Under the pieces are notes generated by a model that saw only the letters and a list, made by a program, of their open reading frames with translations, ran no database searches and was not told where the DNA came from. This document shows, in pieces, positions 13,836 through 41,702 of a DNA stretch of 46,704 nucleotides. How positions within the stretch are numbered: the first letter of the stretch is position 1; the number at the start of each line of letters is the position of its first letter. A program made the position numbers and the translations under genes. The stretch comes from an uncultured Bacteroidota bacterium (GTDB lineage: Bacteria > Bacteroidota > Bacteroidia > Bacteroidales > 4484-276): contig CAJATL010000075.1 of NCBI GenBank assembly GCA_903944895.1, forward strand, positions 1 to 46,704, given 5' to 3'.

Positions 13836-13868
13836 AAACCTACCAGGTTTGCAAAACCTGTGAGGTTT
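13836..13868. repeat. REP-like palindrome copy 1
   Basis: Arms AAACCTACCAGGTTT and AAACCTGTGAGGTTT around loop GCA. The stem is 15 bp with a two-base mismatch. It lies upstream of mtaB and is the first of a cluster around the RAYT gene. Confidence 0.9.
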
Positions 13869-13959: not shown

Positions 13960-13992
13960 AAACCTACCAGGTTTGCAAAACCTGTGAGGTTT
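13960..13992. repeat. REP-like palindrome copy 2
   Basis: Identical in all 33 bases to copy 1, 124 bp away, and to the copy at 21590-21622. Such identity suggests recent spread or continuing homogenisation. Confidence 0.9.
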
Positions 13993-14048: not shown

Positions 14049-14081
14049 AAACCTACCAGGTCTTAGAGACCTGGTAGGTTT
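14049..14081. repeat. REP-like palindrome copy 4, perfect, 3' of the RAYT gene
   Basis: AAACCTACCAGGTCT pairs perfectly with AGACCTGGTAGGTTT around TAG. It ends 12 bp from the stop codon of the transposase gene, and a second perfect copy lies on the 5' side of that gene. Confidence 0.92.
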
Positions 14082-14093
14082 CAACACAAAAAA

Positions 14094-14690
14094 TCACTCA
14101 TCAATCTTATCAATTTCTCCAATTATTCCATCCGACCTGATTTTCTTAAAATCATGCCAAAAAACAAAATTGGATTTATCATCAAAAAATTCAATAACCT
14201 CATTTCTTTTAAGTTTTGTTGGACTGGAAGATAAGATTGATTGGTAAGAGGAGTGATAATAATTCCTAAAATCCTCTACAAATCCGTGTTTTACTGGATT
14301 TAGGTGGATATAGGCAACCAGATGTTGCAAAAAAGCAAGGTCATTCACCCGAATTTTATGAAAATGTTCCTGAAAAAGGCTTCCAGTTCGATTGTAGGCT
14401 TTGTTGATTGCTTTGGTGTAGGCATTAAACAAATTTGAAAACGGTTGATAAATTCGGTTTTTATCCTTAACCAAATCATCGGGCAATTCTTCGTAATCTT
14501 TGATTCTCAAAAGAAAATGAAAATGATTTTTCATCAGGCAGTAACAATAGATTTCTGAGATTGGTAGCAGATGCCGGGAAACCAATTCAAGAAAAAATGA
14601 ATAATTCTTTTCCTCAATAAAAATATTTTCCTTGTTATTTCCACGATTGTAAACATGAAAGAAATATCCTGGCTCAAAAATTTCTGGCAT
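14094..14690 (-). CDS. REP-associated tyrosine transposase (RAYT, Y1/HUH family)
   Basis: A 198-residue single-domain Y1 transposase of the IS200-like/RAYT group. Such enzymes cut and join single-stranded DNA at REP hairpins through a phosphotyrosine link. The HUH motif is His56-Phe57-His58 (MKNHFHFLL), and the likely catalytic Tyr127 lies in AYIHLNPVKHGF, the position of Tyr115 in the E. coli enzyme. The start FEPGYFFHVYNRGNNK and the segment NRTGSLFQEHFHKI are family hallmarks. It has no accessory tnpB and no IS ends. Instead it sits between perfect 15-bp-stem palindromes at 14049-14081 and 14725-14757, with further copies on both sides. It looks intact and is more AT-rich than mtaB and miaB. 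Confidence 0.92.
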   Translation of the reverse strand: MPEIFEPGYFFHVYNRGNNKENIFIEEKNYSFFLELVSRHLLPISEIYCYCLMKNHFHFLLRIKDYEELPDDLVKDKNRIYQPFSNLFNAYTKAINKAYNRTGSLFQEHFHKIRVNDLAFLQHLVAYIHLNPVKHGFVEDFRNYYHSSYQSILSSSPTKLKRNEVIEFFDDKSNFVFWHDFKKIRSDGIIGEIDKIDE

Positions 14691-14724: not shown

Positions 14725-14757
14725 AAACCTACCAGGTTTGCAAAACCTGGTAGGTTT
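14725..14757. repeat. REP-like palindrome copy 5, perfect, 5' of the RAYT gene
   Basis: AAACCTACCAGGTTT pairs perfectly with AAACCTGGTAGGTTT around GCA. It lies 34 bp upstream of the RAYT start codon, in the place of its promoter region. Confidence 0.92.
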
Positions 14758-14769
14758 TAACTAATTCCA

Positions 14770-14806
14770 AAACCTATCATCCACCAACTGGCGGTCTGGT
14801 AAGTTT
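14770..14806. repeat. REP-like palindrome copy 6 with a CCACCAACTGGCGG core
   Basis: The outer arms AAACCTATC and CTGGTAAGTTT are kept, but the loop is replaced by CCACCAACTGGCGG, a degenerate form of the palindrome found inside the copy at 16257-16293. The outer pairing is weakened by drift. Confidence 0.7.
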
Positions 14807-14819
14807 CTATTCATTTTAT

Positions 14820-14851
14820 AACCTACCTGGTTTTTCAAACCTGTAAGGTTT
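14820..14851. repeat. REP-like palindrome copy 7, overlapping the miaB stop codon
   Basis: AACCTACCTGGTTT and AAACCTGTAAGGTTT around TTC. The miaB stop codon (14837-14835) lies in the loop region of this copy, so the element supplies the end of the reading frame. Confidence 0.8.
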
Positions 14852-16223
14852 CCTTAATTCCCAAAACCTCACAGGTCTTGAAGACCTGGTAGGTTTCAAG
14901 CTCTCCTTCCATCGAGAAATCGCTGGCTGAAGTAATTTTTACATCCACAAAACCGCCAAAAAGGTCTTCATTTTCCGAAGCAAACCGCACAATTAATTTA
15001 CCCTCGGTGAGTCCTGATAAATACCCTTCCTTGCGGTCGTGGCCAACAACGAGCAGGCGACAAGTTTTTCCAACCATTTTCTGGTTGCAGGCAAGGGATT
15101 CCTTTCTGAGGTCTTCGGTAATCAGGTGATACCGGGCTTTTTTAACTTCTGCAGGAATATCGTCGTCCCATCGTGAAGCTGCTGCGCCTGGCCTTGGCGA
15201 ATATTGAGCGATGTAAGCCATGTTGTAGTTAAACTCGGTAATCGCTTTGCGTGAATTTTCGAACTGTTCGTCGGTTTCGCCGGCAAAGCCCACGATAATA
15301 TCTGTAAACAAAGTTGCTTCAGGAATTATCCGGCGGACAGCATGAACGATTTCGCGGTATTTTTCTAGGGAATGCTTTCGGTTCATCGTAATCAAAACCT
15401 TATCGTCGCCGGATTGCAGTGGAAGATGGATTTGTTTTGCGAGACAGGGATATTGCGAAATTACTTCAATCACCTCATCAGTCATGTCGCGCGGATGTGG
15501 CGAAGTAAAATAAACCCAGAACTCCTTTTCGATGGAATTGCCCATCTCCCCTATTCTCCGCAGCAAATCTGGAAATCCTATCTCCTCACCTTTTTTATCC
15601 AGACCATACGAATTAACATTTTGCCCAAGCAGGGTAATGGTTTTGTAACCCTGACCAACCAGTGATTTTACCTCTTCAACAATTTCGTCTGAAGGCCTTG
15701 AAACCTCGCGCCCGCGGGTGTAAGGGACGGCACAGAAAGTACAGAATTTATCGCAGCCATTTTGAATGGGGACAAAAGCCTCAAAATTTGAACTATAATG
15801 TGGTGTAATTTTCCAAAAAGTATCAATGCTCTGGTTTTTAGGCATCGAATCGAGATCGCTGAAAAGTGAAGCCGGTGTAACCACGCCATAATGCCGCAGC
15901 ATTTCGGGGAGTTTTTCGAGTTCGCTCATGCGGAATACGATGTCGAAGAGCTTGAGGAACTTTTCCATGTCGTTGGGCAGGATGCAACCCGAAATAAAGG
16001 TGACCAGGCTTTTTTTATGCTTCCATTTATTCCATTTGGTGATGCGCGAATAGACCTTGTTGATGGCCTTTTGCCGCACCGAACAAGCCAGAATGCCTAC
16101 TAGGTTTGCTTCAGCTTCGTTGTCGGTCCATTCGTAGCCGGTTTGCGACTCGATAATCGTGCGCACCCGCTCGCTGTCCGAGATGTTCATGTAGCAACCT
16201 AAGGTGATGAGATGATATTTCAT
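14835..16223 (-). CDS. miaB: tRNA i6A37 methylthiotransferase MiaB
   Basis: A radical-SAM enzyme that converts i6A37 to ms2i6A37 in tRNAs reading UNN codons. I place the start at 16223 (MKYHLITLGCYMN), giving 462 residues. The frame is open to 16298, but that extension reads through a repeat and adds non-family residues. With this start the UPF0004 cysteines are Cys10, Cys47 (ACSVRQKA) and Cys80, and the radical-SAM motif is Cys157-x3-Cys161-x2-Cys164 (CDKFCTFC). A TRAM domain follows to about residue 440. The last 19 residues (TYQVFKTCEVLGIKETLQV) are encoded by two palindromic repeats and are not part of the family. The gene is followed by the FNR-like gene on its 5' side. Confidence 0.93.
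   Translation of the reverse strand: MKYHLITLGCYMNISDSERVRTIIESQTGYEWTDNEAEANLVGILACSVRQKAINKVYSRITKWNKWKHKKSLVTFISGCILPNDMEKFLKLFDIVFRMSELEKLPEMLRHYGVVTPASLFSDLDSMPKNQSIDTFWKITPHYSSNFEAFVPIQNGCDKFCTFCAVPYTRGREVSRPSDEIVEEVKSLVGQGYKTITLLGQNVNSYGLDKKGEEIGFPDLLRRIGEMGNSIEKEFWVYFTSPHPRDMTDEVIEVISQYPCLAKQIHLPLQSGDDKVLITMNRKHSLEKYREIVHAVRRIIPEATLFTDIIVGFAGETDEQFENSRKAITEFNYNMAYIAQYSPRPGAAASRWDDDIPAEVKKARYHLITEDLRKESLACNQKMVGKTCRLLVVGHDRKEGYLSGLTEGKLIVRFASENEDLFGGFVDVKITSASDFSMEGELETYQVFKTCEVLGIKETLQV
14864..14896. repeat. REP-like palindrome copy 8, inside the miaB coding end
   Basis: AAACCTCACAGGTCT and AGACCTGGTAGGTTT around TGA, with a two-base mismatch in the 15-bp stem. On the minus strand it is translated as part of the MiaB C-terminus (ETYQVFKTCEV). 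Confidence 0.88.
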
Positions 16224-16256: not shown

Positions 16257-16293
16257 AAACCTCACATCCGCCATCTGGCGGACTGGTAGGTTT
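16257..16293. repeat. REP-like palindrome copy 9 with a CCGCCATCTGGCGG core
   Basis: Outer arms AAACCTCACA and CTGGTAGGTTT enclose the inner palindrome CCGCCA-TC-TGGCGG. It lies between the FNR-like gene (whose stop is 14 bp away) and the miaB start. Confidence 0.85.
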
Positions 16294-21436: not shown

Positions 21437-21455
21437 GAGGTAAAGGTAGTAAAAA

Positions 21456-21808
21456 CATGGAAAGATGGAAGAGTTGAAGAATGGAATGTTGGAAAGATGG
21501 AAACTTGGAAAAATGAGATAATTCGACTATTCGGCAATTCGACAATGGAAGAATGCACCCCTGATAGTTATCGGAGGAAATTTGGAGCGAAACCTACCAG
21601 GTTTGCAAAACCTGTGAGGTTTTTTTTTGATGTAAAAAAAGTGTGGAAAAATTGCTAAGTTGAAGAATGTGACAATTCGACAATAGAAGAATGGAATGAT
21701 GGAATGGTGGAATGATGGAACGATGGAAGAATTCGACAATGGAAGAATGGAATGATGGAAAAATGAAACAATTCGACAATTCGACAATTCGACAATTCAA
21801 CAATTGAT
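21456..21808. repeat. Long degenerate 8-bp-period array with embedded palindromes
   Basis: From 21456 to about 21547 and again from 21653 to 21808 the sequence runs in octamers such as GGAATGAT, GGAAGAAT, TCGACAAT and CAATTCGA, with about 19 consecutive units in the second block. Between the blocks lie a degenerate CCCGATAGCTATCGGG palindrome (21558-21575) and REP copy 10. Open frames across it on both strands are by-products of the repeats; I see no gene. Confidence 0.85.
21590..21622. repeat. REP-like palindrome copy 10
   Basis: Identical in all 33 bases to copies 1 and 2 although about 7.6 kb away. It is followed by a run of T, so on the plus strand it resembles a terminator. Confidence 0.92.
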
Positions 21809-21896
21809 GAAATGGATGAATCTATAAGTTTTCTAATTCCGGCTCCTGACTTCCGGCTTTTACCTGCCGACTGCCGAATGGCAACTGCCACCTGCC

Positions 21897-29096: not shown

Positions 29097-29116
29097 TTTG
29101 TCGGTTAAATTTCAAT

Positions 29117-29167
29117 CTATTCACCAAGTCCCTCATTGCCGTTGTCAAGTACAAATTTCCAGTTAAC
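29117..29167 (-). pseudogene. Remnant of the DUF4440-like lipoprotein gene (3' end only)
   Basis: Read on the minus strand this piece encodes VNWKFVLDNGNEGLGE followed by TAG, nearly the same as the last residues NWKCVLDTGNEGLGE of the intact gene at 30850-31323. DNA similarity extends from 29096 to about 29166 against 30832 to about 30900, with roughly five mismatches and one gap. Beyond that it stops. It is a broken copy or a repeat end, and the DUF4143 ATPase gene lies between the two copies. Confidence 0.85.
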
Positions 29168-30774: not shown

Positions 30775-30849
30775 AACCAGATAGTTTCCGGGTTTTAACC
30801 CAAAACAATTCAGTTTTTAGTCCGGATTTATTTGTCGGCTAATTTCATT

Positions 30850-31323
30850 CTATTCTCCAAGTCCCTCATTGCCGGTGTCAAGTACACATTTCCAGTTTCC
30901 TCTGCTGTCTTTTTTCCAGATGGACAGGTAAGTTCCTTTTTCAGTTTTCAGACCATCCGATTTTATGGTCATCGTGTAAATTCCATAACTGTAGCCGAGG
31001 TCGCCACTTGTCGAAACCTCTGCAAACAAAGGCTCCCAGACAAGTGTCATTTTAGAGTCGTCAAAATTTTTATAAAAATCGCTAAAAGCAACTTTCCCGA
31101 CAACGGGCATCGAATTTTCGCGAAGCATTACCAGGTTTTCGTCTCCATAGAGTTCAAAGGCTTTCTTCATCCCATTTTTTGAGGAATAGTCCGAAAACTC
31201 ACGGTCAGTTTTGAGGATGCCATCTTTTTCACTGGCGACATCAACGGTTCTGATGGTTGAACATTGAACCAATAATATCGTCAAAACCAGAAATAACAAT
31301 GGTTTCAGTAGATTTGCTTTCAT
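30850..31323 (-). CDS. DUF4440/SnoaL-like lipoprotein
   Basis: A 157-residue lipoprotein (lipobox VQCS, Cys21). The mature part is a small NTF2-like fold: REFSDYSSKNGMKKAFELYGDENLVMLRENSMPVVGK, then WEPLFAEVSTSGDLGYSYGIY and YLSIWKKDSRGNWKCVLDTGNEG. This is the DUF4440/SnoaL-like pattern of Bacteroidota. Ligand or activity is unknown. Two copies of one palindrome bracket it, and its 3' end is duplicated downstream of rnhB. Before insertion of the ATPase gene it may have stood directly convergent to rnhB. Confidence 0.8.
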   Translation of the reverse strand: MKANLLKPLLFLVLTILLVQCSTIRTVDVASEKDGILKTDREFSDYSSKNGMKKAFELYGDENLVMLRENSMPVVGKVAFSDFYKNFDDSKMTLVWEPLFAEVSTSGDLGYSYGIYTMTIKSDGLKTEKGTYLSIWKKDSRGNWKCVLDTGNEGLGE

Positions 31324-31681: not shown

Positions 31682-31719
31682 TTTGTTGAATATTTATTTG
31701 TTATTTAATTTTTTATTTT

Positions 31720-31804
31720 GGAATGTTGGAATGTTGGAATGTTGGAATGTTGGAACCCCGATAGCTATCGGGGGGAATGTTGGAATGTTGGAACGTTGGA
31801 AAAA
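31720..31804. repeat. GGAATGTT octamer array with an 18-bp palindrome inside
   Basis: Four units of GGAATGTT, then CCCCGATAGCTATCGGGG (31756-31773, perfect), then three more units resume in the same orientation. The rest of the gap up to 31852 is AT-rich with nothing recognised. Confidence 0.9.
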
Positions 31805-31852
31805 TGATTTGCCAATTGGTAAGCGTTGATATTTTGAATAAATCTATCATAG

Positions 31853-32275
31853 TTAATTGTTTTTCTCATTATCAAAATTGTCCTGCCAGTTGTTATCCTT
31901 TACTTTCATTTGAATTGATTTGATCAATTTCAGAAGTTCATTTTCCATCTTAAAGTGGAGCTGGTCCAGCGATTCAAAATCAATCTCTGAAATTTGATTT
32001 GCTTTGAAAAAACAAACAAAGGAGCTATGAAATTCGCCACTCGAACCTAAGGCAATATTTAAAAAATTCAGGTATTCTTTGATTGATCTCCGGCAATACC
32101 CTTCCGCAATATTCCGGCTGATGCTATGAGCAGAATCCATTGTATTTGCAGTGATTTTTTTTAACTCATAAGGAAAAGTTGACAATACTTTGGTACTCAA
32201 AACATACAATTCGACAGCATCCTGCCAAACCCGCAATTTTTTATACCCCCGATTAATATTCAACCTTTCAGTCAT
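31853..32275 (-). CDS. Four helix bundle protein (S23/TIGR02436 family)
   Basis: A 140-residue member of the family first found as an open frame inside 23S rRNA intervening sequences, now common as scattered single genes in Bacteroidota. The signature is complete: YKKLRVWQDAVELY (about 11-24), TMDSAHSISRNIAEGYCRRSIKEYLNFLNIALGSSGE (about 46-81) and the final long helix. It should form a four-helix bundle related to Avd-type proteins and may bind nucleic acid. Function is unknown. It is bounded by GGAATG-type octamer arrays in inverted orientation and splits a likely two-gene unit. Confidence 0.93.
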   Translation of the reverse strand: MTERLNINRGYKKLRVWQDAVELYVLSTKVLSTFPYELKKITANTMDSAHSISRNIAEGYCRRSIKEYLNFLNIALGSSGEFHSSFVCFFKANQISEIDFESLDQLHFKMENELLKLIKSIQMKVKDNNWQDNFDNEKNN

Positions 32276-32325: not shown

Positions 32326-32406
32326 CCCCCCGATAATCCAGATAGCTATCGGGTTTCCATTCTTCCAGTCTTCCATTCTTCCATTTTTCCATTCTTCCCC
32401 TCTTCC
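32326..32406. repeat. TTCCATTC octamer array with a split CCCGATAGCTATCGGG palindrome
   Basis: CCCGATA, then ATCCA, then GATAGCTATCGGG (32329-32353) is a palindrome with a small internal duplication. It is followed by about six octamers of CATTCTTC/CATTTTTC type, the reverse complement of the unit at 31720-31804. The array ends at the stop codon of the flavoprotein gene. Confidence 0.85.
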
Positions 32407-33864
32407 TTACTCCGGAATCAGCGACCATCCGGGCAAAGCTTTGGCTTTGTACATAAACATGTAGTGCATAAAAAGCTTCATCCAGTGGCCGGCAAGGCCG
32501 GGTTCACCCACAGTGTAGTTGAGGTCGCGGCCCCATTCGGGATATTTCTCAAAATCCGGAACAACAGGATAAACGGTCATCGTGGCTGCCATGCCGTCGC
32601 GGATTCCATAACCCGAAGATACGATGCAGGCGGCACCCATCCTACCCATTGAGGCACGATGGTTAGTTATTGTTTTACCGGCCTTTACCGATTCGGCCAC
32701 ATTTAAAGCAACAACTTTGCCCATAACCCCCGAAGGCATCCCGGTGCGTGGTGGCGTTGGGAAAATCGGGTTACCATTTTTACTTTTAAACGGCTTGGAA
32801 ATGGAATGCGGTGGCGCGAAGGCAATTCCGCAGGCAAAAATATTTTCATATAGAGGGCTTTGGTATTTCGAAGGCCAATCGTTTATACTCCAGTTTTCGA
32901 AATCTTTGGGAACATAATCGGCATCAACTTTCATCAGCCCATTTGGAGCAAAAACAGATGCAGAGATATCTTCACCGGCTTTATTTTTCGCCGTAAGGCC
33001 AACACCAGCAAAAGCAGGGATCAACATGGCAAAATCAAAACCTATTTCGCTCATTTCACCATCGAGCGTTTCGTAATGAATAACGCCGGGTTCAACCTTT
33101 TTCACTCCGGCACGTTTAATCCATTTAATGCCATATTCCGACATGATCGATTCGGTAAAAATGCGGGTCGAGGTTACGTATCCGCCCTTTCTGATAAATG
33201 CACCACCCATTCCAAAATCGCCAAGCTCATACTCGTTGGTTATCCAGGTGATGTCAGCCAGGTGCATCAGTTTACGCTTATTGATTTCAAAAGCTACGTT
33301 GAGGGCATACTCAAAAGCCGCACCCTGACAGGTGGCCATCGGGTGCCCAGTTCCGATGACAAACCGCTGCCGTTCGCCTTTGGCCATCTTATCCAGCGCA
33401 ACCTGAAGTTTACTCCAGGCATCGGCGGCATGGCCGAATGTACAAACAGAAAGTGAGTTTTTATCGGGGCCAAGGCCTTCGGTGGCCGCAAAATTGAGTT
33501 TGGGGCCGGTGGCGTTGATCAGATAATCATATTCCACTTTTTCGATCTGCCCTTTTTTGCCATCTTCAACAAATTCGATTTCTACAAAAGGTTTTGTCGA
33601 GGCTGCGTCGCCTTCGGGGAAAATTGTTTTTGCAAGCGCCTGTTTAAAGGTCACATTTTTCCGTTTATAAACCGGCGCAAGCGGAAAAATCACCTGGCTT
33701 GTTTTCATTTGCCCGATTCCAACCCAGATATTTGAAGGAATCCATTGGTAATTGCTGTTTGGGCTAACCATGATTACTTCGTGCTTTTTCTCAAGCTTTT
33801 TGCGAAGAATCATTACAGCAGTGTGGCCGGAAATCCCGGCACCTAGAACGACTACTTTTGCCAT
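32407..33864 (-). CDS. Sulfide:quinone oxidoreductase-like FAD protein
   Basis: A 485-residue flavoprotein of the SQR/flavocytochrome-c sulfide dehydrogenase/NDH-2-like group. The N-terminal FAD motif is VVVLGAGISGHTAV (4-17), with the acidic end of the ADP-binding strand replaced by MVSPNSNY. LINATGPKLNF is the second FAD motif. Cysteines at 141 (VCTFGHA), 179 (ATCQGAA), 345 (FACGIAFAPP) and 413 (AACIVSS) include candidates for the redox pair used by SQR, and the end HWMKLFMHYMFMYKAKALPGWSLIPE resembles the membrane-binding C-terminus. It would oxidise sulfide with electrons passed to quinone at the membrane. The exact type and substrate are not proven. Confidence 0.75.
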   Translation of the reverse strand: MAKVVVLGAGISGHTAVMILRKKLEKKHEVIMVSPNSNYQWIPSNIWVGIGQMKTSQVIFPLAPVYKRKNVTFKQALAKTIFPEGDAASTKPFVEIEFVEDGKKGQIEKVEYDYLINATGPKLNFAATEGLGPDKNSLSVCTFGHAADAWSKLQVALDKMAKGERQRFVIGTGHPMATCQGAAFEYALNVAFEINKRKLMHLADITWITNEYELGDFGMGGAFIRKGGYVTSTRIFTESIMSEYGIKWIKRAGVKKVEPGVIHYETLDGEMSEIGFDFAMLIPAFAGVGLTAKNKAGEDISASVFAPNGLMKVDADYVPKDFENWSINDWPSKYQSPLYENIFACGIAFAPPHSISKPFKSKNGNPIFPTPPRTGMPSGVMGKVVALNVAESVKAGKTITNHRASMGRMGAACIVSSGYGIRDGMAATMTVYPVVPDFEKYPEWGRDLNYTVGEPGLAGHWMKLFMHYMFMYKAKALPGWSLIPE

Positions 33865-41656: not shown

Positions 41657-41702
41657 AAACCTCACAGGTTTTATCCCGATAGCTATCGGACCTGGCAGGT
41701 TT
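41657..41702. repeat. REP-like palindrome copy 11 with a CCGATAGCTATCGG core
   Basis: The outer arms AAACCTCACAGGT and ACCTGGCAGGTTT (two mismatches) enclose the perfect inner palindrome CCGATAGCTATCGG (41676-41689). The same core occurs as a free palindrome at 31756-31773. It lies 11 bp after the stop of the acyl-CoA synthetase gene. Confidence 0.9.

Follow-up and report, generated by a model that had tools for sequence, protein, structure and literature searches.

Short palindromic cores shared by REP-like hairpins and tandem repeats in a Bacteroidota genome

Two very short palindromes recur in hairpins and repeats of a Bacteroidota genome. One, which we call core 1, reads CCCGATAGCTATCGGG and is closed there by a C–G or a T–A outer pair; the other, core 2, reads TCCGCCANCTGGCGGA. 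Judged from their sequences we hold, with slightly more confidence than doubt, that both are non-autonomous mobile micro-palindromes which would replace short unpaired stretches of hairpins or of slipped repeats. Comparison established a high copy number, an exact length of the unit, its presence or absence between relatives, the ability of one host to take different cores and, for core 1, a host enlarged by 12–14 nt net. The window, i.e., the whole stretch of 46,704 nt that was analyzed, contains the following features:

13836..13868, forward strand, plain REP-A (the copy that was folded)
13960..13992, forward strand, plain REP-A
14049..14081, no strand, plain REP-A with symmetric arms
14094..14690, reverse strand, RAYT-A, a REP-associated tyrosine transposase-like gene within the REP-A cluster, product with the motifs NHFH and YIHLNP
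14725..14757, no strand, plain REP-A with symmetric arms
14770..14806, forward strand, REP-A outer arms with a decayed core 2
14820..14852, forward strand, plain REP-A, slightly decayed
14864..14896, reverse strand, plain REP-A, orientation (CAC..GGT) opposite to 13836 and 13960
16257..16293, forward strand, REP-A outer arms with core 2 (TCCGCCATCTGGCGGA, 16267–16282)
21590..21622, forward strand, plain REP-A, distant from the transposase gene
31719..31808, no strand, 8-bp tandem array (TGGAATGT) hosting core 1
31756..31773, no strand, core 1 alone, CCCCGATAGCTATCGGGG, in the 8-bp minisatellite between GGAA and GGAA
32337..32354, no strand, decayed core 1 directly behind CCCCCCGATAA, resembling a core-in-core that has decayed
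41657..41702, forward strand, REP-A arms with core 1 replacing the loop and part of the inner stem, reads AAACCTCACAGGTTTTA + TCCCGATAGCTATCGGA + CCTGGCAGGTTT
41674..41690, no strand, core 1 copy TCCCGATAGCTATCGGA with broken outer pairs, inside the REP-A composite

REP-A is a multi-copy extragenic palindrome. Several 33-bp copies, identical or nearly so, are spread over the window and other parts of the genome. The plain copy that was folded forms a 33-nt hairpin with six outer pairs, an internal mismatch, seven inner pairs and a loop of 3 nt, the loop length that the original prediction had given for ordinary copies. Six plain copies and one core-bearing copy lie around the RAYT-A gene, and the REP orientation is inverted about this gene, the copies at 13836 and 13960 reading ACC..GTG and the copy at 14864 CAC..GGT. 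The sequence GTAG is found inside the REP-A arm (CTGGTAGGTTT) and does not adjoin the foot of the stem. The RAYT-A product matched NF047646 with an E-value of 4.2e-17 and 62.4 bits, which is under the curated cut-off of 80, and a Pfam search with it was without match. We take its NHFH and YIHLNP sequences to be the HuH and the Tyr motif, respectively. This assignment fits a published motif table (PMC6006769). In a genome of another genus of the same family (G007) there is a syntenic orthologue of RAYT-A which is 75% identical and also lies amid REPs. A second RAYT of the present genome (locus L053) reached 98.7 bits, above the cut-off, and is flanked by arrays of other palindromes, only some of which contain core 1. 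Three more Y1 transposase genes (L139, L140, L141) are each situated amid their own palindromic arrays, e.g., AACCACGAAGTGGTT in L141, and the genome therefore seems to hold several REP systems.

All four places on which the original prediction was built were found as described, namely the composite at 41657–41702, core 1 standing alone at 31756–31773, the other core TCCGCCATCTGGCGGA at 16257–16293 and its decayed form at 14770–14806. The loop of the 41657 composite had been called a complete second palindrome. Core 1 is indeed present there, but besides the loop it occupies the inner stem tip on one side, with TTTTAT staying unpaired to the left. Only the inner 14 bp of this copy match perfectly, and both outer pairs of the 18-mer are broken. 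The left and right junctions of this composite recur in L089, L103, L112, L117, L024, and L094. Folded as nested hairpins, the composites at 41657 and 16257 were each better than 200 of 200 shuffled sequences; the decayed copy at 14770 showed no such excess, 113 of 200 shuffles folding as well. It had further been proposed that one set of arms carries alternative cores at the same position. One arm set does carry several cores, but not all junctions in REP-A lie at the loop, and cores 1 and 2 have just the right junction in common there, with CTGG following directly after both of them in the window's composites; the left junctions differ by 7 nt, core 1 beginning after CACAGGTTTTA and core 2 after CACA. 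A genome-wide extraction of the arms gave 26 REP-A-like arms with a long insert compared to 4 in the control. According to our own reading five of these 26 places hold core 1, three core 2 or a likely relic of it, two a third double palindrome, and one a core 2 that is nested and has a further palindrome at its tip; the other 15 hold other sequences.

The cores also occur without REP-A arms, both alone and in other hosts. In the 7.17 Mb genome (7,167,115 bases) the sequence CCGATAGCTATCGG of core 1 is present in 113 copies and its reversed control in none; 105 of the copies correspond to one of two perfect 18-bp palindromes, 56 to CCCCGATAGCTATCGGGG and 49 to TCCCGATAGCTATCGGGA. For core 2 the sequence CCGCCANCTGGCGG had 41 forward and 38 reverse matches, again with 0 in the control. 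Since these counts, together with the 26 arms versus 4, are far above those of the reversed or control patterns, chance occurrence of the cores, which the prediction had named among the outcomes that would refute it, is excluded.

The surroundings of 107 of the 113 core 1 copies were compared, for which about 0.73 Mb of distinct sequence, roughly a tenth of the genome, was sampled. Sorted by ad hoc patterns into ten context classes, 28 copies are found in 8-bp minisatellite arrays, 16 in CACATTAGG arrays, 13 in CAAA/CTCAAA arrays, and 7 and 3 in other arrays, followed by REP-A tips (7), a AATCACAAAAGTC host (7), the inside of another core (6), the space between two REP hairpins of the L053 family (5), and a CCTTCCCC/GGGGAAGG hairpin (3), with 12 copies left unassigned; because the sampled stretches were mostly chosen for containing cores, these fractions are not genome-wide estimates. 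The original idea that palindromes insert into hairpin tips therefore has to be qualified: several host hairpins hold cores at their tips, but 67 of the 107 collected copies sit, by these rough patterns, in tandem-repeat arrays, often between 4-bp direct repeats, and what is seen where an empty form exists is mostly the replacement of a short loop or spacer and not plain insertion. Genes are avoided, with 13 of 107 core 1 copies inside ORFs of 150 or more amino acids versus 1464 of 2140 random positions. The period-8 minisatellites (TGGAA+3, ATTCGACA), the commonest home of core 1 in our sample, are present in the window at 21450–21820, 31719–31808, and 32354–32411 and recur in the genome as well as in G001 and G007. 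Between two core 1 sites of the window (31853–32275) there is a gene for a four-helix-bundle protein of the 23S rRNA intervening-sequence family (PF05635, TIGR02436).

Among 98 genomes the core 1 14-mer was present in 19, the present one included, with 1 to 113 copies each, and seven of 12 genomes of the same family contain none. A scan with one genome per species yielded at least 117 stretches with core 1. Among the 117 matches listed, 116 carry Bacteroidota names and one is named "uncultured bacterium"; within this list there is thus an indication that core 1 is confined to Bacteroidota. The same 18-mer dominates in distant members of the phylum, and in other genomes core 1 is also seen within terminator-like hairpins (L260, L285). 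Environmental viral contigs, consisting of phage or host DNA, contain core 1 in 41 stretches (L444–L484). Core 2 is found in at least 120 stretches of viral contigs, and its specificity may be far lower than that of core 1.

Nine comparisons between filled and empty hosts could be read clearly, most of them between paralogues or species and not between isogenic strains, and four low-identity pairs (L466, L470, L480, L481) were ambiguous. In these nine comparisons, which cover seven unrelated hosts, a short loop or spacer gives way to core 1 and the host becomes 12–14 nt longer; in the eight other than that of the L053-family spacer the net gains are 12, 12, 13, 13, 13, 13, 13, and 14 nt. REP-A grows with core 1 from 33 to 46 and from 33 to 45 nt. 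A host CCCTTCCCCA[AATT]GGGGAAGGG changes to ..A[core]GG.. and from 23 to 37 nt (L163 compared with L030 and L122), and a host with CACATAG exists in two forms which lose CATAG or CATTA and grow from 37 to 50 and from 35 to 48 nt. In G007 the host TCCCGAA[AGCTT]TCGGGA is enlarged from 25 to 38 nt, the centre of TCCCGAAAGCTTTCGGGA being replaced (L330 compared with L322). A Flavobacterium host of 27 nt with GCCGG[GGTTC]GGC (L261) has 40 nt when it carries the core (Flavobacterium L300); the same host shows a third tip, TCCCGTTAAAAAACGGGA, in L231. The host in viral contigs (35 to 47 nt; three filled and three empty copies) reads GAGAG[GGGTT]AGGGG when empty and has TCCCGATAGCTATCGGG between GAGAG and AGGGG when filled, and contig L455 contains both filled and empty copies. 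Finally, the spacer between two REP hairpins of the L053 family measures 16 nt in seven of seven clean empty copies, 29, 29, 29, and 28 nt in four copies with a single core, and 35 and 43 nt in nested or decayed forms. Three pairs do not follow the 12–14 nt rule: L230/L204 (18 versus 11 nt), L315/L046 (different hairpins at one place), and L339/L383, which differ by the whole host palindrome. Several of the hosts are high-copy repeats, and therefore many filled copies may stem from few events.

The two flanks of core 1 resemble each other more often than cross-paired flanks do. For the 107 copies of this genome, where the cross-paired control includes members of the same host, direct similarity of 5 or more nt was found 24 times versus 2.5 expected and inverted similarity of 6 or more nt 10 times versus 4.4. 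The inverted excess is small here, shrinks at 7 or more nt (5 versus 3.4) and has vanished at 10 or more nt (1 versus 1.4). With 129 copies from named genomes the values are 15 versus 1.6 (direct, 5 or more) and 14 versus 2.3 (inverted, 6 or more), and with 47 copies from relatives 9 versus 0.8 (direct) and 5 versus 1.8 (inverted), these two sets overlapping at no fewer than three places with the same flanks (L199/L311, L200/L305, L207/L317) and containing several copies per genome. Exactly abutting 4-bp repeats enclose 21 of the 107 copies of this genome, where 1.3 would be expected; the corresponding figures are 7 of 129 in the named genomes (0.8) and 2 of 47 in the relatives (0.15). By type they are found at 19 of 55 C-type copies (1.85 expected) and at 2 of 49 T-type copies (0.25). 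Seventeen of the 19 C-type cases lie in 8-bp arrays in one of two phases (GGAA/TTCC or CGAC/CGGC/GTCG), and the other two in an ACAA-rich array. Despite these strong statistics a simple 4-bp target-site duplication does not agree with the hairpin hosts that have empty counterparts, which show loss and not duplication; in the 8-bp arrays such a duplication fits as well as a replacement of 4 nt.

Decay was followed in 119 core 1 copies of this genome within two changes, a sample in which exact copies were mostly chosen: 100 show no change, 11 a single one, and 8 two, all eight being unpaired at both positions. Among 51 copies sampled from relatives there are 18 that differ from the 16-mer at two positions, and 17 of these have kept perfect pairing, but these loci were fetched by the inner 14-mer and the changes therefore fall mostly on the outer pair; such copies may represent other subfamilies. 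A symmetric correction of the arms was not seen in the present genome.

Exchange and nesting are also evident for core 2, of which 24 distinct copies were read. The junction after AATCACAAAAGTC carries core 1 in L016, L088, and L130 and core 2 in L094. The arms TGAGCGG..CCGCTCA have a native tip in eight copies of 25 nt, core 2 in L181 and L163 (starting with C), and a decayed core 2 in L051, and the arms AAAGCGG..CCGCTT have the native tip nine times and core 2 once. In a further comparison (L037 versus L168, L177, and L184) a host reading AATCCGCG, TTTGAAAA, and TCCGTTAG, with TTTGAAAA as the central stretch, stands against one with the 16-bp core. Two other candidates, TCCCAAAGGGATGCCTGCGGCA (core 3) and TTCGACTGAGCTCACGCCGAAG with its variants (core 4), were noticed in few copies only. 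Triple and possibly deeper nests were noticed at G000:C374:42658–42720 and on the minus strands of L127 (1217) and L046 (1477); they are composed of REP-like arms, core 2, and a TTCGNCTGAGCTCACGCCGAA palindrome, which in L127 encloses a further palindrome resembling core 2. The reverse arrangement, several arms with one tip, exists as well: three different stems of the L053 REP family in L036, L051, and L053 (GCGGC-, GGACA-, TTGA-) have the tip ATTGCAAAT or ATTACAAAT in common.

The cores mark presence/absence differences between close relatives. In G001, which belongs to the same genus, the array orthologous to that at 31756 (G001:C855) runs on without the core and is aligned on both sides, and the whole REP-plus-core of 41657 is absent. 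The G001 array corresponding to L056:14609 is likewise without core, anchored by a gene on one side only. In G007 the gene whose upstream region holds the 41657 composite in the window is preceded by a plain REP-A. At the site of 16257 no REP was found in the aligned stretches of G005, G007, and G010.

How could such an exchange proceed? The target would be the tip loop of a hairpin already in place or the short spacer between two direct repeats. We envisage a folded single-stranded stem–loop as donor and, as acceptor, a loop or slipped-repeat bubble exposed during replication. The exchange could be carried out by a core-recognizing enzyme, most naturally a HuH/Y1 protein of the TnpA-REP kind, or by a template switch of a polymerase; REP hosts with a transposase, such as REP-A, might then carry the new composite onward as a REP subtype. 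TnpA-REP proteins are described as acting on single-stranded hairpins and cutting at CT or CA (PMC8266576). In REP-A the sequence CTG directly follows seven core 1 copies and the window's two core 2 copies, and this fits cutting at CT but is suggestive only. The RAYT at L053 was considered as the mover of core 1. RAYTs like it occur in 8 of 19 core-positive versus 13 of 79 core-negative genomes (98 genomes, Fisher p 0.026), which is a weak association, and at E<=1e-10 none was found in the core-rich genomes G023 (44 copies) and G062 (50 copies); both results speak against this candidate.

Other explanations have to be set against mobile cores. A stalled nascent strand might copy another hairpin and return, i.e., by template switching or gene conversion independent of sequence, common palindromes being spread by mutation alone. 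The sites are classic substrates for such events, namely hairpin tips and short direct repeats, duplicated half-cores CTATCGGGG CTATCGGGG exist (L111, L097), and the two-change copies of the relatives are mostly paired. In E. coli and other organisms, inverted repeats are described as sites of template switching (PMC7202029, PMC8794818). A sequence-blind process, however, predicts less than an identity of 14–18 bp throughout the phylum; the dominance of one 18-mer in distant Bacteroidota together with its 14-mer lacking in 79 of 98 genomes, the near-constant net gain over nine comparisons, and the eight unpaired two-change copies, by which arm correction is not prominent in this genome, make this explanation unlikely in our view. 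Because one sequence of 14–18 bp recurs across the phylum, we favour a dedicated enzyme over chance template switching. That the cores are mere passengers, with one origin per host repeat and amplification only within RAYT-moved REPs or other repeats, we consider quite improbable. It would agree with the one junction common to seven REP-A composites, with the RAYT-like gene within the window's REP-A cluster, and with the composites of another REP family that surround another RAYT, but core 1 has ten context classes in one genome, enters terminator-like hairpins elsewhere (L260, L285), and is lacking in two arrays of a congener.

Noc, ParB, and MatP have palindromic sites. A perfect palindrome of 14–18 bp with about 100 copies, mostly outside long ORFs and partly in terminator-like hairpins, could in the same way be a selected protein-binding site or part of a terminator. 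This appears very improbable to us with copy numbers of 0 to 113 between relatives, with whole units gained by replacing loops and not by point mutation, and with decayed copies beside intact ones. We give hardly any credence to the explanation that the core is the scar of an excised insertion sequence ending in the core halves CCCGATAG and CTATCGGG, even though IS1272 is described as swapping target stem–loops for its own (PMC5678879). In 1.45 Mb, comprising sequence of this genome and 117 named loci, half-cores occur 40 times, close to the approximately 44 that we estimate by chance for two 8-mers, and no facing pair 10–4000 bp apart was detected, many of the named loci having only about 3 kb so that a long insertion sequence could be cut off. 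In this sequence there is accordingly also no parent element with the same terminal inverted repeats as expected for a MITE. We rejected the scar explanation on the missing facing half-cores; core 1 acts as one undivided unit.

The original prediction knew of no named element class with this behaviour, but partly similar behaviour has been published (PMC3733652, PMC4478555, PMC5678879). REPs or BIMEs with a RAYT (TnpA-REP; PMC2817692, PMC8266576) are alike in that REP-A, too, is extragenic and palindromic, has many copies and surrounds a RAYT-like gene, and that the L053 RAYT lies amid another palindrome family including core 1. Unlike these, cores 1 and 2 have 16–18 bp and enter several unrelated REPs and non-REP repeats, the GTAG is placed inside the arm and not at the foot, and the cores have no assigned RAYT. 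In the REP families GTAG-23 of T. roseum, GTAG-15 of A. variabilis, and CGTC-1 of H. neapolitanus (PMC3733652) a palindromic repeat likewise lies inside other palindromes, and the T. roseum target also occurs empty; there each family has one target consensus, whereas here one core has many unrelated hosts, one host several cores, and the loop is lost. The same source describes REP loops of the E. coli type GTAG-3, with several loop types on one stem, some self-complementary with up to 6–7 bp paired, but these are variants within GTAG-group REP families and not units found also alone or in unrelated hosts.

Very short palindromic elements that are held to be mobile are known from mitochondria, namely the GC clusters of yeast, which merge and shuffle (PMC4478555), and the hairpin elements of sponges (PMC2800124). 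The GC clusters share direct-repeat flanks with our cores, and GC42 is found merged and stand-alone at one homologous site, much as core 1 occurs alone, in hosts, and core-in-core, with filled and empty copies of one site in L455. These elements, however, lie in organelles and in AT-rich surroundings, and their mergers are not known to us as nesting at hairpin tips, whereas core 1 is bacterial, phylum-wide, and nested. With IS1272 (PMC5678879) the cores may have in common that an inverted repeat of the target is swapped for an incoming one without target duplication. IS1272 is a full insertion sequence that removes the target stem–loop, while here 16–18 bp, too short a unit to encode a transposase, take the place of a short stretch within host arms that are largely retained. 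When the strings of core 1, core 2, and REP-A were looked up in open-licence full texts, there was no match except for CGATAGCTATCG in a paper with an unrelated title.

We raise, tentatively and as a possibility we would sooner doubt than assert, that the cores represent an undescribed class of mobile DNA, consisting of fixed palindromes of 16–18 bp which are distributed phylum-wide, move as folded single-stranded hairpins, and replace short loops or the spacers of direct repeats, so that palindromes would grow inward by successive nesting. If this is right, the cores would in our judgement be among the smallest mobile units of bacteria and would allow one to study directly the assembly of long hairpins, REPs and terminators for instance, from modules that can be exchanged. 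Simple comparisons of strains can test the mechanism, since the unit is exact, recurs across Bacteroidota, and adds a nearly constant 13 nt or so net.

The window contains further repeats. A 57-nt direct repeat (29108–29164 and 30841–30897; 93% identical, 1733 bp apart) brackets an ORF of 439 amino acids, for which an NCBIfam search gave no match. The direct repeats at 155–247 and 1855–1947 and at 780–909 and 2483–2612, about 1700 bp apart, look like two tandem paralogous genes.
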